From a virus, in the IMG/VR virus record IMGVR_UViG_3300035666_000117, positions 1-31,216 of that record: DNA of 31,216 nt; one strand, written 5' to 3'. The notes below the pieces were generated by a model that was not told the DNA's origin, did no database searches, and saw only the letters and a program-made list of their open reading frames with translations. The stretch's first letter is position 1. The number at the start of each line of letters is the position of its first letter. Below, piece by piece: positions 21,745 through 28,146 of this stretch. A program made the translations under genes and the position numbers.

Positions 21745-21927
21745 TTAGTTTTCTAGCTTTTGTGAAAGGTATTCAACAACGGATCTTTGTCCTGATCGAA
21801 ACATGATCTCAGAGATGGTGCTAATAGGTGTGGGCAGGAAGGATGGAAAAAGGGAGTCAAGTTCTTCAATAAGCTTTTCTAGAACCTGCTCCCCTTCAAA
21901 CACATCCTTTGCGGATAGCTCATCCAT
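21745..21927 (-). CDS. Small acidic protein of unknown function
   Basis: A 60-residue protein whose ATG overlaps the end of the reductase small-subunit gene by 8 bases; it ends 2 bases before the proline-rich ORF. Acidic N-terminal half (EGEQVLEKLIEELDSLFPSF, about 12-31) followed by a polar helix (SGQRSVVEYLSQKLEN). No family recognised. The tight spacing on both sides supports a real gene. Confidence 0.65.
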   Translation of the reverse strand: MDELSAKDVFEGEQVLEKLIEELDSLFPSFLPTPISTISEIMFRSGQRSVVEYLSQKLEN

Positions 21928-22639
21928 ATGCAGGGAGGTTTACGTTTGATGCCTCAAAGAAAGCTGGCATCCTTGCTCGTTGTGTTTCGGCTAGACCTTC
22001 GGCTTTACCTTTCAGATAAAGAGAATCAGACTGCTTAATCCAGAAGTCCTTATCTAGCCATTTGTTTTCACTACTGACCAGCTCATCCATCACCCATGCC
22101 ACAGTGGCCCGGCGAAGACGATTCAGGTTCTCTGTTGATTTAATTCCCAGGTCGTGGCAGACCATGCCGTGAATGGCAACGTGGGTCTGCTCATCACGGC
22201 TAATGTCTGCTGCCAGGGTCCTGATGCCTACATCCCCGTTGAACCGGAAGAACGGGAGCAGAACAAAGAAGACAGACCTTTCCAGGATGGAAGCCTTAAG
22301 GATCGGATGCTCAGGGGCATCCAGCCATGCCTGTTTAATCCGTTGTGCTTCTTTCTCTGCCTTTGCATCACTACCATGAGCAGCAATAACATAGTTCAGA
22401 CCCAGATCATGTTTATCCTCGTCTGCCTGATTTGACATCAGCGCTTCAATAACCCCAGGTTTGTTAGGGAGTTCCTTGTCCAGACCTTGTTGGAGAAATG
22501 ACTTAACAGGAAGCTCAAGGCAGCGGAGTGCCAGGGCCCGCTGCAGGGTTGCTTCTGATCCTGGGGCTACTTCTCCTTTGTCAACAGCGACTGGAGTCCA
22601 TTTACGTTTTCTAGCTACTACTTCTAAATACTTCGACAT
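21920..22639 (-). CDS. nrdB: Ribonucleotide reductase small subunit (class I beta-like)
   Basis: A 239-residue ferritin-like protein. I chose the ATG at 22639, which overlaps the alpha-subunit stop (TAATG), over an upstream in-frame start at 22651. Metal-ligand motifs of class I beta subunits are visible: E74-x-x-H77, E120 (in SILERSVFF) and E150-x-x-H153 (RDEQTHV); E42 is a candidate first ligand. The position that carries the radical tyrosine in E. coli (His plus 4) is Leu81 here. A tyrosine at 83 is two residues off. It is shorter than E. coli NrdB (376 aa). The partner alpha subunit is immediately upstream. Published work reannotated the comparable P-SSP7 cyanophage enzyme as class I. Cofactor type cannot be told from sequence. 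Confidence 0.85.
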   Translation of the reverse strand: MSKYLEVVARKRKWTPVAVDKGEVAPGSEATLQRALALRCLELPVKSFLQQGLDKELPNKPGVIEALMSNQADEDKHDLGLNYVIAAHGSDAKAEKEAQRIKQAWLDAPEHPILKASILERSVFFVLLPFFRFNGDVGIRTLAADISRDEQTHVAIHGMVCHDLGIKSTENLNRLRRATVAWVMDELVSSENKWLDKDFWIKQSDSLYLKGKAEGLAETQRARMPAFFEASNVNLPAYG

Positions 22640-24024
22640 TACTCGGCGCAAGATACACAGAACTCATCATCTTCTGCAAATGAGAAGATTTCCTTGTAGT
22701 CGTCATCCAAGATTGCTGCTGCATCATCCTTGCGGAGAGTGTCAGGCATGACTTGGAGGGCGTAATAAAGAGAGGTCTGAGGTGACTCAAGCCACTCTTG
22801 AATGAATGCGTTGTCATAGGTGACAACATCAGACCAGCTATTAAAACTGTACCCGTGCAGCAGACCCGTAGAGTCAAGCAATCTCAAGATGCCATCAGCA
22901 ACGGACTTGTAGGCCTTCCAGCCGACCTCTGCTGCAATCTCCACCGGACCATAGTCAAAACTCTGCACACCAAAAGTCCCTGAATCTCTATCGACTTCTC
23001 GTGCAATTGGTGGGGCAATCTCTGGGCAGCATGTGTATCCATCCAGATCTGTGTAGCGGTAGCTGCATGAGGCTGTTGGAGCGATGGCAAAGGCCCTATC
23101 CATATTGTTGGCTTTAGCTACCTGTGCTGCCTGCTCAATGCCGTTCCTCAGTTCAAGAGCTAGTACGTAGGCTGAGTTGTACTCTTCTTTGTATTCATTG
23201 GTGACGACATCTTCCAATGCCACTCCAAAGTCTTCGTAGGTGACTCCATATCGTCTGAGCAGATTCGCCAGTCCCAGGATGCCTAGCCCAACCTGTCGGT
23301 CATCTTCAGGGCTTAGGTATTCCCCACTCATCCCAACGCCAGTACGAGCGTGAAGGGAGCACAGCTCAGACATCCCAGCAACAAATGCTGGAGCAATATC
23401 ACCAACTTCACAGGCGCCTAGGTTGATATGTTGTAGCAGGCAGGTCCCCCGAGAAGGGAGAAAAACCTCCAGGCAGACATTGCCGTAGATCCGGTTTCCT
23501 TTATTGTCGTGGCGAATCTTTGTCAGCCAGATATCTCCGCTATGTATGCCTCGCAGGATTGCTTGCTGAACTACTTCATCAGTAGCATTCCACTTCTCCT
23601 GGTCTACGTTGATACAACGCTTGACCCAAGGCAGCTCCGCTCTTGACACATTGACAAAATCAAGAACATCTGGATGGTCAATATCAAGGTGAAGTACACA
23701 AGCACCATTCTTGTAAACTCCACCCCTTCTGAGAATCTCATTCAATGATGAGTAGATCTTTCCAAAGGAAACTGGACCGCTGGACACAAGACCCTTGCCG
23801 TTCTCGTAGCCCTTAGGGCGAAGCTTTGATAGGTGTACGGCTACGCCTGCTCCATAGCGCAGTGCATGGGATACAAACCTCCAACTGGCTTCAATCCCAT
23901 TTGGACCTTCCATCGAGTCATCAACCACAAACACTGTGCAGCTAACGGGAAGGCGGGCCTCTGGATTGTCAATCCAGGACTGAACACGGCCCGTTCGGGC
24001 AATTGTTTCGGCAGTTGACTTCAT
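22639..24024 (-). CDS. nrdA: Ribonucleotide reductase large subunit, compact
   Basis: A 461-residue protein that reduces ribonucleotides for phage dNTP supply. Catalytic elements are present: C29 (LPVSC), then N182-x-C184-x-E186 (GNVCLEV) matching E. coli N437, C439 and E441, and C195 in CLLQHINLG matching C462. PTASCSYRYT, a Tyr-Tyr pair in SLYYALQV and a C-terminal C456-x-x-C459 for thiol exchange complete the set. It lacks an N-terminal ATP-cone and much of the N-terminal helical region, so it should lack dATP feedback inhibition (inference; E. coli NrdA is 761 aa). Starts by TAATG overlap with the MazG-like gene. Small phage enzymes of this type have been labelled class II; the adjacent beta-like gene argues for class I. 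Confidence 0.92.
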   Translation of the reverse strand: MKSTAETIARTGRVQSWIDNPEARLPVSCTVFVVDDSMEGPNGIEASWRFVSHALRYGAGVAVHLSKLRPKGYENGKGLVSSGPVSFGKIYSSLNEILRRGGVYKNGACVLHLDIDHPDVLDFVNVSRAELPWVKRCINVDQEKWNATDEVVQQAILRGIHSGDIWLTKIRHDNKGNRIYGNVCLEVFLPSRGTCLLQHINLGACEVGDIAPAFVAGMSELCSLHARTGVGMSGEYLSPEDDRQVGLGILGLANLLRRYGVTYEDFGVALEDVVTNEYKEEYNSAYVLALELRNGIEQAAQVAKANNMDRAFAIAPTASCSYRYTDLDGYTCCPEIAPPIAREVDRDSGTFGVQSFDYGPVEIAAEVGWKAYKSVADGILRLLDSTGLLHGYSFNSWSDVVTYDNAFIQEWLESPQTSLYYALQVMPDTLRKDDAAAILDDDYKEIFSFAEDDEFCVSCAE

Positions 24025-24413
24025 TAGATTAAATCTTCTAGAAATGGTGGTTCGTAGTTTGGACCCTTAAGCACCTTGCCTCGCTCATCTTTGACTGGCT
24101 TCCCATCTACGAGCTTGGACATATTGCTTCGATGTACTCTTGCCAGAGCTTCGTCGAGTTCCCACCCAGCAGCAGCAGCAAACTGGAAGCAAACGTACAC
24201 AAGATCCGCAAGTTCTTTAAGGGCATCCTCTCTAGCCCTAAGGTTTGAAAGATCCTCAGTGCATTTTTCGTATGCATAGAAGAACTCGTTGCTCTCTTCA
24301 AATATGAGATCTGATTGAATGTCAAGAACGTCTGAGCTAAAGTGCGATGTTGGTTGACTCATGGCCAACCGAAATTGAAGTGCTTGGCCTAGCAGGTCAG
24401 GAACGTTGGTCAT
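24024..24413 (-). CDS. MazG-like nucleotide pyrophosphohydrolase
   Basis: A 129-residue all-alpha NTP pyrophosphatase-type protein. The metal-binding pattern is visible: EESNEFFYAYE (about 39-49) followed by KELADLVYVC (about 66-75). The C-terminal NMSKLVDGKPVKDERGKVLK is usual for the phosphoribosyl-ATP/MazG-like subgroup in cyanophages. It may hydrolyse non-canonical or signalling nucleotides. Substrate cannot be told from sequence. It starts by ATGA overlap with the DUF3310 gene and leads directly into the reductase, placing it in nucleotide metabolism. Confidence 0.87.
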   Translation of the reverse strand: MTNVPDLLGQALQFRLAMSQPTSHFSSDVLDIQSDLIFEESNEFFYAYEKCTEDLSNLRAREDALKELADLVYVCFQFAAAAGWELDEALARVHRSNMSKLVDGKPVKDERGKVLKGPNYEPPFLEDLI

Positions 24414-26142: not shown

Positions 26143-27829
26143 CCTTCATTGCACATGTAATTAAGAAGGCGGCCTGCTCCGCTTGTTCTGGTTCAACTGA
26201 TAACTGCATCTCGTCGTGTACAAATGCCAACGGCCAATAATCAATACCTGCTTCCCTCAGCAGTTCGTTACTGCGGATGACCCACCGCTTGCAGATGATT
26301 GCCCCTGCTGATTGCAGAAGGTAGTTCAAAGCAGCGTGGCTTTTGCCTTGCAATCGAATTGGCCTACCGTCCAGGCCTGTGATGACCCCTGATTTGGCCT
26401 TTTCTTGAATGGCCTCTGTGAGCTGACCAAACCCGTCAAGGTCAGACATGATCCGTTTGCGGATCTCTTTGCCCTTGCTTATGGCTTTGTCCTTGCTGGC
26501 ACCTGCCGTCAGTCCCAGCTTCATGTCACCACCCCCGTAGATCAGGCAATAGGTCACTCCCTTGCCTGTCTTCCTGTCAGTGCCATAGATCTCTGCCAGC
26601 GCGTTGTGGATGTCTCCCTCCACAACTTCCTTGCCAAACTTCCCACCATCAAATCTTGCTAGATAGTGGGCAAGGCACCTGAGCTCTAGACCACTGGCAT
26701 CGGCACCAACCTGAGCCCTCTTAGGTCCTGGAATGAACAGCTCCCTATAGTCATGTGCTGACGGAACTTGAGCAAGGTTCGGCTTCATATGAGCCATCCT
26801 GCCTGTGTTGGTGTTCAAGACGCAGGAGTGGTGGATCCTGCCATCTTTCTCCACTTTCTTAAGCCAGGCGTTTTGACCCTCGCTCAATTGGCCTAGGTGT
26901 TTTTGTAGTTCCAGAATACGAGCGAATTTTTTCGACTCTATAGTTCCAAGGTTGACCAAGACATCTTCGTCGATCTTGGGAACACCAGTGTCAGTGAACT
27001 CTTCTGGCTTCCACCCTCTGAACTGTTTGAAGGCCCAGGCTATGTGCTGTCTGGAAGTCGGGTTGAACTCTTTGAGGCGGCAGAATGTTGCACCAGTTAC
27101 ATACCCTCTTGTTTTGTTGGGGCGTAGTGGTGTGAACTCACCTCCATCCACAAATAGAAATGTGGACCGCATCTCTTCGGAGAGCTGTTCAAGTTCAGAC
27201 CTTAATCTTCCTTCCAGTGCGTGGGCCTTCTTTAGATCAAAGGGATAGCCCTCCCGTTCCTGCCAGGACATTAGCTTAGCCAGCTCATGTTCTGTCGTAA
27301 TGCACTGTTCGTACTCTTTTAGCTTGGGCTCAAAGAGCTTGCTCAAGGCTACGGACACTTCTACGTCTTGAGCGCAGTAGTCCAGCATCTCAGGTGTGTA
27401 GGTTGACCAGTCACCTTTGAGTTGCTTGCCGTACTCACTCTTCAACACCCCTAGCCTGTAGCCCCAGGATTCCAGGGAGTGTCTTCCATAGAGCTGGGCT
27501 GGCATGTTGGCTGGTTTGCTTCTGAAATCCCGATCCAGCATGTCCATGAAGAACAGCCTTGAGAGGATCAGTGTGTCGTAAACCTTCTGTTCTGGGTTGA
27601 AGAACGGGTAGATCTCTTTGATGGCTTCAAAGTCATAGCCGACGATATTGTGGCCCCAGAGCTCATCAGCTTCAGCCAGGATGTTGATCCCGGTTGTGAC
27701 TGATTCACGCAGCCCACTGTCGTCATACTTCAATGTCTCCCCTGTATCCAGGTCATGGGTGACCAGACAGTGAACACAGGAGAGGTCCCTGAGGAGTCCA
27801 TCTGTTTCAATGTCAAAGACAAGTCTCAT
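26063..27829 (-). CDS. 5: DNA polymerase, family A, T7 gp5-like
   Basis: A 588-residue polymerase with 3'-5' exonuclease. Exonuclease motifs: LVFDIETDGLL (D6, E8), GHNIVGYDFEAI and YCAQDVEVSVAL. Polymerase motifs: DASGLELRCLAHYL (motif A), KTGKGVTYCLIYGGG (motif B) and FVHDEMQL (motif C). T7 gp5 is 704 aa. Part of the shortfall is in the thumb, where T7 has a thioredoxin-binding insertion: the comparable stretch before EFNPTSRQH (residues about 221-254) is about half as long by my memory of T7. It starts by ATGA overlap with the thioredoxin gene and its 3' end overlaps the HNH gene. Confidence 0.97.
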   Translation of the reverse strand: MRLVFDIETDGLLRDLSCVHCLVTHDLDTGETLKYDDSGLRESVTTGINILAEADELWGHNIVGYDFEAIKEIYPFFNPEQKVYDTLILSRLFFMDMLDRDFRSKPANMPAQLYGRHSLESWGYRLGVLKSEYGKQLKGDWSTYTPEMLDYCAQDVEVSVALSKLFEPKLKEYEQCITTEHELAKLMSWQEREGYPFDLKKAHALEGRLRSELEQLSEEMRSTFLFVDGGEFTPLRPNKTRGYVTGATFCRLKEFNPTSRQHIAWAFKQFRGWKPEEFTDTGVPKIDEDVLVNLGTIESKKFARILELQKHLGQLSEGQNAWLKKVEKDGRIHHSCVLNTNTGRMAHMKPNLAQVPSAHDYRELFIPGPKRAQVGADASGLELRCLAHYLARFDGGKFGKEVVEGDIHNALAEIYGTDRKTGKGVTYCLIYGGGDMKLGLTAGASKDKAISKGKEIRKRIMSDLDGFGQLTEAIQEKAKSGVITGLDGRPIRLQGKSHAALNYLLQSAGAIICKRWVIRSNELLREAGIDYWPLAFVHDEMQLSVEPEQAEQAAFLITCAMKDVESAISFRCKLDSEYKIGASWADTH

Positions 27830-28146
27830 ATGTTGTTGCGCAGGCGAAAGTCATGGATGTACGTCAAGGCCTTTTCCCACCACTCCTGAGGCAGCAACCG
27901 GGCTCCCACACGCCTTGCCACTTCATCACCGTTCTTATCCAGAATCAAAACTGTTGGATAGGTCTGGAGGTCGTAGCTGTGAACCAGGGCAGAGTGGTAT
28001 TCCTTCTGCATGACATGGACTATCGGCCTTAACTCAGGCCGTTGCTGCAGTACAGCGTCCAACCCCTCTTCTGTTACTTTGCAGGGATTGCATTCCTGCT
28101 TCTTGAAGAACACCAACTTGTAAGGGATGCCCTCAAAAGTCGTCAT
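27826..28146 (-). CDS. Thioredoxin-like protein
   Basis: A 106-residue protein. I chose the ATG at 28146, which removes an unlike N-terminal stretch and leaves a 14-base overlap with primase-helicase. The CxxC is C19-N-P-C22 (in KKQECNPCKVTEEG) rather than the usual WCGPC, and the cis-proline loop LQTYPTVLILDKNG is present. Host thioredoxin is the processivity factor of T7 DNA polymerase. Here a phage copy lies directly before gp5, with ATGA overlap. It could also reduce the phage ribonucleotide reductase. Which role applies is not visible. Confidence 0.85.
   Translation of the reverse strand: MTTFEGIPYKLVFFKKQECNPCKVTEEGLDAVLQQRPELRPIVHVMQKEYHSALVHSYDLQTYPTVLILDKNGDEVARRVGARLLPQEWWEKALTYIHDFRLRNNI

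Follow-up and report, generated by a model that had tools for sequence, protein, structure and literature searches.

An RNR small (beta) subunit that keeps the metal ligands of a class I enzyme but lacks the radical tyrosine raises the question of where its oxidising equivalent is held. Such a subunit is encoded in the window, a 31,216-base viral record with T7-like cyanophage gene content, including portal, scaffold, capsid, tail tube, internal virion proteins, DNA polymerase, primase/helicase, and 5'-3' exonuclease around the RNR locus. We consider it probable that this Cyano SP / class Ø subunit carries a class Ic-like dimetal oxidant, most likely Mn/Fe, from which a hole is passed to the alpha subunit.

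The RNR locus and its family

The beta gene, encoding a ferritin-like subunit of 239 aa, occupies 21920..22639 on the minus strand, with its ATG at 22639 and its stop ending at 21920. An earlier note on this DNA had given the same coordinates with no strand; translation confirms the former and identifies the strand as minus, and the plus-strand frame over these positions is full of stops. The start agrees with that of homologues. The assignment is supported by the phrog_6799 (RNR beta) profile, matching end to end (E=1.5e-114), by structural modelling, and by conservation in 323 homologues, while Pfam PF00268 matches weakly, under the family cut-off. The protein is identical over its full length to one in a single other IMG/VR contig (L001), followed by its next closest relatives at 83%, Syn5 at 70%, and P-SSP7 at 52% identity. 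With a median pairwise dN/dS of 0.10, the beta family is under strong purifying selection.

The alpha subunit (461 aa; 22639..24024, minus strand), identified by translation, motifs, the junction, and a PF02867 match (E=7.6e-20), lies directly upstream of beta here and in almost all loci. Its stop shares one base with the beta start in a TAATG junction, from which the two genes appear to be translationally coupled. Directly upstream of alpha, and in the same nucleotide-metabolism gene group, is a MazG-like nucleotide pyrophosphohydrolase (24024..24413, minus strand; phrog_671, E=2e-31), an order shared with Syn5 and S-CBP4. On the other side, a small conserved gene (phrog_4970; 21745-21927, minus strand) overlaps the end of beta and also stands beside it in Syn5 and most phage-like contigs examined. 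In the Microcystis phage Mic1 and its relatives (L085, L185), beta and alpha are not adjacent, being some 12-13 kb apart; this beta is about 34% identical to that of the window and keeps the same ligands and Leu81.

Beta is a member of the cyanophage Cyano SP / class Ø family, a minimal RNR. In its members, a short alpha of about 410-470 aa is followed immediately by a beta of about 240 aa, which has E/D plus EXXH twice and Phe or Leu at the radical-Tyr position, as found here. Beta ends in LPAYG, one residue past a Tyr and without an alpha-binding tail, and alpha has a YY dyad, no ATP cone, a CXXC tail (CVSC), and a sequence closer to class II. The RNRs of P-SSP7, Syn5, and S-CBP4 match that of the window in their length, their ligands, the Leu/Phe at the radical position, the short C-terminus after Tyr, the upstream alpha, and the T7-like cyanophage context, differing in sequence detail only; the window alpha has a CXXC tail, like Syn5 and S-CBS4, whereas P-SSP7 and S-CBP4 have CXC. 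Overall, alpha tails are of two kinds, with CXXC at 146 loci, the window included, and CXC at 78 loci on the P-SSP7/S-CBP4 side.

The missing Tyr was described in P-SSP7 by Harrison in 2019, with a new subclass, 'Cyano SP', proposed (PMC6370689), and was reported again by Burnim et al. in 2022, who renamed the family class/clade Ø (PMC9531940); both reach the same reading for the relatives, so the trait itself is not new. The published precedent that the earlier note had invoked for the subunit pair extends to the missing Tyr itself. What is new here is the breadth of the position-81 test, the answer on Tyr83, and the side results, with no new principle. A 2026 preprint still calls the class Ø group biochemically uncharacterised (PMC12918982), and the literature found holds no measured metal content, cofactor, or activity for a class Ø RNR.

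Several related records deserve mention. The deposited records of S-CBP4 (L084, KC310804.1) and P-RSP2 (L087) carry a frameshifted beta, leaving the annotated protein shortened or missing. In L099 (3713-4654), some 237 bases interrupt beta, both halves of which are conserved, pointing to an inserted element, perhaps an intron. Relatives with Phe81 lie on the IMG/VR contig L320 (189,763 bases) and on L334 (125,409 bases), both far larger than a cyanopodovirus genome.

All 14 matches in species genomes (L088-L101) are on MAG or single-cell contigs labelled Planctomycetota, Verrucomicrobia, Flavobacteriales, Dehalococcoidia, Euryarchaeota, Prochlorococcus, and others. T7-like phage genes stand beside the RNR in 13 of them, and the remaining contig (L089) groups in the tree with a viral contig, near the siphophage S-CBS4. 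What has been described as the bacterial part of class Ø (PMC9531940) may thus consist of phage DNA, either binned together with bacteria or infecting them, a suggestion drawn from a scan with two peptide patterns.

Metal ligands, position 81, and Tyr83

Translation gives six metal ligands in beta, E42, E74, H77, E120, E150, and H153, which include two EXXH pairs. The earlier note had named the last five correctly and missed the first, E42, which is Glu as in class Ic and Id rather than Asp as in class Ia and Ib. The P-SSP7 beta has the same set (E42, E71, H74, E117, E147, and H150), with D70 and D146 in the second sphere (PMC6370689 Table 3). At the position of the radical Tyr in E. coli NrdB, which in class Ia and Ib lies four residues after the first His, beta has Leu81 (codon at 22399-22397, minus strand, counted from the ATG), as the note had claimed.

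Conservation was assessed in two sets. The first comprises 206 distinct full-length betas, which were drawn from phage records, species genomes, and IMG/VR and fall into 29 clusters at 80% identity. None of the six ligands varies in it, nor do W14, D73, and D149. At position 81, 194 of these betas carry Leu and the other 12 Phe; a maximum-likelihood tree built from 95 representatives requires four exchanges between the two residues. Loci from pattern scans enlarged the set to 323 distinct betas in 53 clusters, with position 81 Leu in 268, Phe in 55, and Tyr in none. Ligands, W14, D73, and D149 again show no variation, although the scan patterns fix residues 67, 70, 73, 74, 77, 78, and 81 and restrict 83, biasing conservation there in the added loci. 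Y238 is present in every homologue that reaches the C-terminus uncut by a contig end.

The position-81 scan covered all of IMG/VR (2.9 million viral contigs) with patterns otherwise identical. The Tyr pattern gave no match, compared with 70 for Phe, 69 of them confirmed as true relatives by tblastn, and at least 120 for Leu (CTN codons only). Phe and Tyr codons are one base apart, and the two residues do exchange at position 83 (Tyr in 296 and Phe in 25 of the 323 betas); hence, from these counts, Tyr looks selected against at position 81. A Fisher value computed for this contrast is descriptive, since the sequences counted are related to one another.

According to the earlier note, this reading would be overturned if a structure-based alignment put Tyr83 or another Tyr beside the metal site. 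In the AlphaFold2 model, Tyr83 shares helix 63-88 with E74, H77, and L81. Taking 100° per residue, L81 and E74 are 20° apart, whereas Y83 is 160-180° from L81/E74 (180° from E74 itself), which would place Tyr83 on the helix face opposite the metal-binding side, an orientation that rests on helix geometry and alignment. The family profile alignment puts L81 over F127 and Y83 over Y129 of the Chlamydia trachomatis R2 (numbered from the alignment; weak, E 0.11). That R2 is the enzyme on which the Mn(IV)/Fe(III) type was founded and has no radical Tyr (PMC8463856, PMC4118035), so its Tyr129 is no stand-in for one; the literature search found no Y129 mutant. Additionally, Tyr83 is replaced by Phe or Leu in 27 of 323 relatives. 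On these three grounds, Tyr83 is rejected as the radical site.

A radical on some other Tyr or Trp of beta (Tyr4, W105, W182, or similar, besides Tyr83) replacing Tyr122 is doubtful more generally. It could draw on W14, W105, W182, and Y238, which are invariant or nearly so, and on Tyr83 being only two residues past the canonical position. However, Tyr4 is also substituted in some relatives, W14 and Y238 suit the parts that W48 and Y356 are known to play in radical transfer, and there is no further invariant Tyr in beta.

Fold and subclass comparison

The AlphaFold2 model of beta (pLDDT 91, pTM 0.87) was compared with the PDB using Foldseek. The best 50 matches are all RNR R2 subunits except for one AurF and span class Ia, Ib, Ic, Id, and Ie, with query TM-scores of 0.40-0.61 and the class Id subunit of Flavobacterium johnsoniae at the top. 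A single match passes E 0.001, so the model supports an R2 fold for beta without separating subclasses. A single-sequence phmmer search of beta against the PDB gave no match; the best PDB profile matches are those to the C. trachomatis class Ic R2 described above, and profile-profile comparison with class Ia beta was not significant (probability 1.4%). The link to R2 thus rests on the fold and the class Ic profile alignment.

The fold matches also bear on the idea that beta is not an RNR subunit but an R2lox-like oxidase, which we regard as extremely improbable. R2lox proteins belong to the same ferritin-like superfamily and have the same type of metal site (PMC4118035). Nevertheless, F124, four residues after E120, is invariant in beta, whereas R2lox has Ala in place of R2c F197; the pairing with alpha and the invariant C-terminal Tyr stand against it as well, and this reading is rejected.

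Among the RNR classes, Phe/Glu is the pairing signature of Ic, Tyr/Glu that of Id, and Tyr/Asp that of Ia and Ib (PMC8463856). Class Ic combines Glu at site 1 with a non-Tyr residue (Phe, Leu, or Val) at the radical position, so the E42/Leu81 pairing reads as class Ic-like. Class Id is approached in its Glu but not in its Tyr. Class Ie, with lost ligand carboxylates, a DOPA-forming Tyr, and NrdI dependence, is rejected, since beta keeps all carboxylates, has no such Tyr, and NrdI was not found in six related phage records.

The nearest known systems each resemble beta in part. The C. trachomatis R2 shares Glu at site 1, a non-Tyr radical position, the R2 fold, a second Tyr two residues on (Y129 / Y83), and Phe four after the third carboxylate; it differs in being about 100 residues longer, with an alpha-binding tail, and in having Phe rather than Leu and second-sphere E119 rather than D73, at about 15% identity in the Foldseek alignment. 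The F. johnsoniae R2 (Mn2) shares Glu at site 1, an alpha without an ATP cone, and a metal-based oxidant, as proposed for beta, but is longer and keeps a (non-radical) Tyr where beta has Leu. The E. coli class Ia R2 (Fe2-Y122) shares the R2 fold, the EXXH pairs, Asp before the second EXXH, and a C-terminal pathway Tyr, whereas beta has no Y122 equivalent and Glu replaces Asp at site 1.

Two features weigh against a strictly Ic-like site. In C. trachomatis R2, Y222 is used in cofactor activation, and it has no Tyr counterpart in beta, where D145 takes its place by spacing. The second-sphere pattern fits no known subclass, and Harrison could not place the Cyano SP relatives with class Ic (the NrdBz group) phylogenetically (PMC6370689), so beta is not filed as class Ic.

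It is conceivable, though we lean against it, that a dimanganese (class Id-like) or diiron high-valent cluster stores the oxidant instead of Mn/Fe, superoxide-activated in the Mn2 case without a phage NrdI. The first-sphere ligands of the P-SSP7 beta match Id exactly, as they do Ic, and Glu at position 42 is also common to Mn2 class Id (PMC6370689 Table 3); the class Id beta has the highest TM-score, and the negative NrdI search is in keeping with class Id activation by superoxide (PMC8463856). Against this, the radical position of class Id retains a Tyr, which is never present there in this family, and the best sequence match of beta is the C. trachomatis Ic protein. The overall reading of the earlier note, a class I-like beta in which a stable tyrosyl radical is unlikely and a metal cofactor as in Ic may serve, is supported and agrees with PMC6370689 and PMC9531940.

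The alpha partner and the proposed transfer route

Alpha carries C29, C184, and C195, the Y420-Y421 dyad, and the C-terminal CVSC (456-459). The dyad is present in 226 of 226 aligned alphas, and the three active-site Cys wherever covered. Its best NCBIfam match is NrdJ_Z (class II); Burnim et al. likewise found alpha nearer class II by sequence and place it outside class I, in clade Ø (PMC9531940), so 'class I' here denotes mechanism more than membership.

This affinity, along with the first annotation of cyanophage RNRs as class II, is what could favour beta being an accessory or inactive ferritin-like protein while alpha works otherwise, for example class II-like with adenosylcobalamin. That is very unlikely: the beta metal site is invariant under the purifying selection noted above, the Tyr dyad of the S-CBP4 alpha fills the space that binds adenosyl in class II (PMC9531940), and alpha and beta are apparently coupled in translation. 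A class II-only mechanism is rejected on these three points.

A small thioredoxin-like gene with a CNPC motif lies between DNA polymerase and primase (27826-28146, minus strand), with relatives in Syn5, S-TIP28, S-CBP42, P60, and S-CBP2. Among the RNR Ø carriers searched, it occurs in CXXC-type phages only and was not found in those of CXC type. It was considered and rejected as a fixed partner of the CXXC tail, being absent from many CXXC phages and present in P60-type phages, a patchiness that leaves no firm link; it is possibly an RNR reductant or a polymerase partner.

For the favoured Ic-like reading, the oxidising equivalent would be kept on the dimetal cluster bound by the six ligands and not on a Tyr, with both the metal pair, most likely Mn/Fe, and the oxidation state of the cofactor inferred, and Leu or Phe at position 81 would keep the pocket beside the metals redox-inert. 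On contact of beta with alpha, the hole would leave the cluster by way of W14 and D149 (with H77), reach Y238 at the C-terminus, cross to Y421/Y420 of alpha, and end on C184, giving a presumably active enzyme. W14 is the likely W48 counterpart because no other invariant aromatic precedes the first ligand helix, and Burnim et al. equate the beta C-terminal Tyr with Y356 (PMC9531940). The same study notes that beta is without the usual alpha-binding tail (PMC9531940); its docking on alpha must consequently differ. It also reports that ferritin-like proteins of class Ø lose stability when no metal is present.

A less favoured possibility is a metal-centred oxidant other than the Ic Mn/Fe, such as high-valent Mn2 or Fe2 with no Tyr and no NrdI, delivered without a docking tail. 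If true, the smallest known oxygen-dependent RNR would use a cofactor of a new type. No known RNR has a smaller catalytic subunit than those of class Ø, which are common in cyanophages and have been given a basal position at the class I/II split. With Tyr strictly excluded throughout the family, a metal-based oxidant becomes a firm and testable prediction, one that bears on how marine phages make DNA precursors in hosts whose own enzyme depends on B12.
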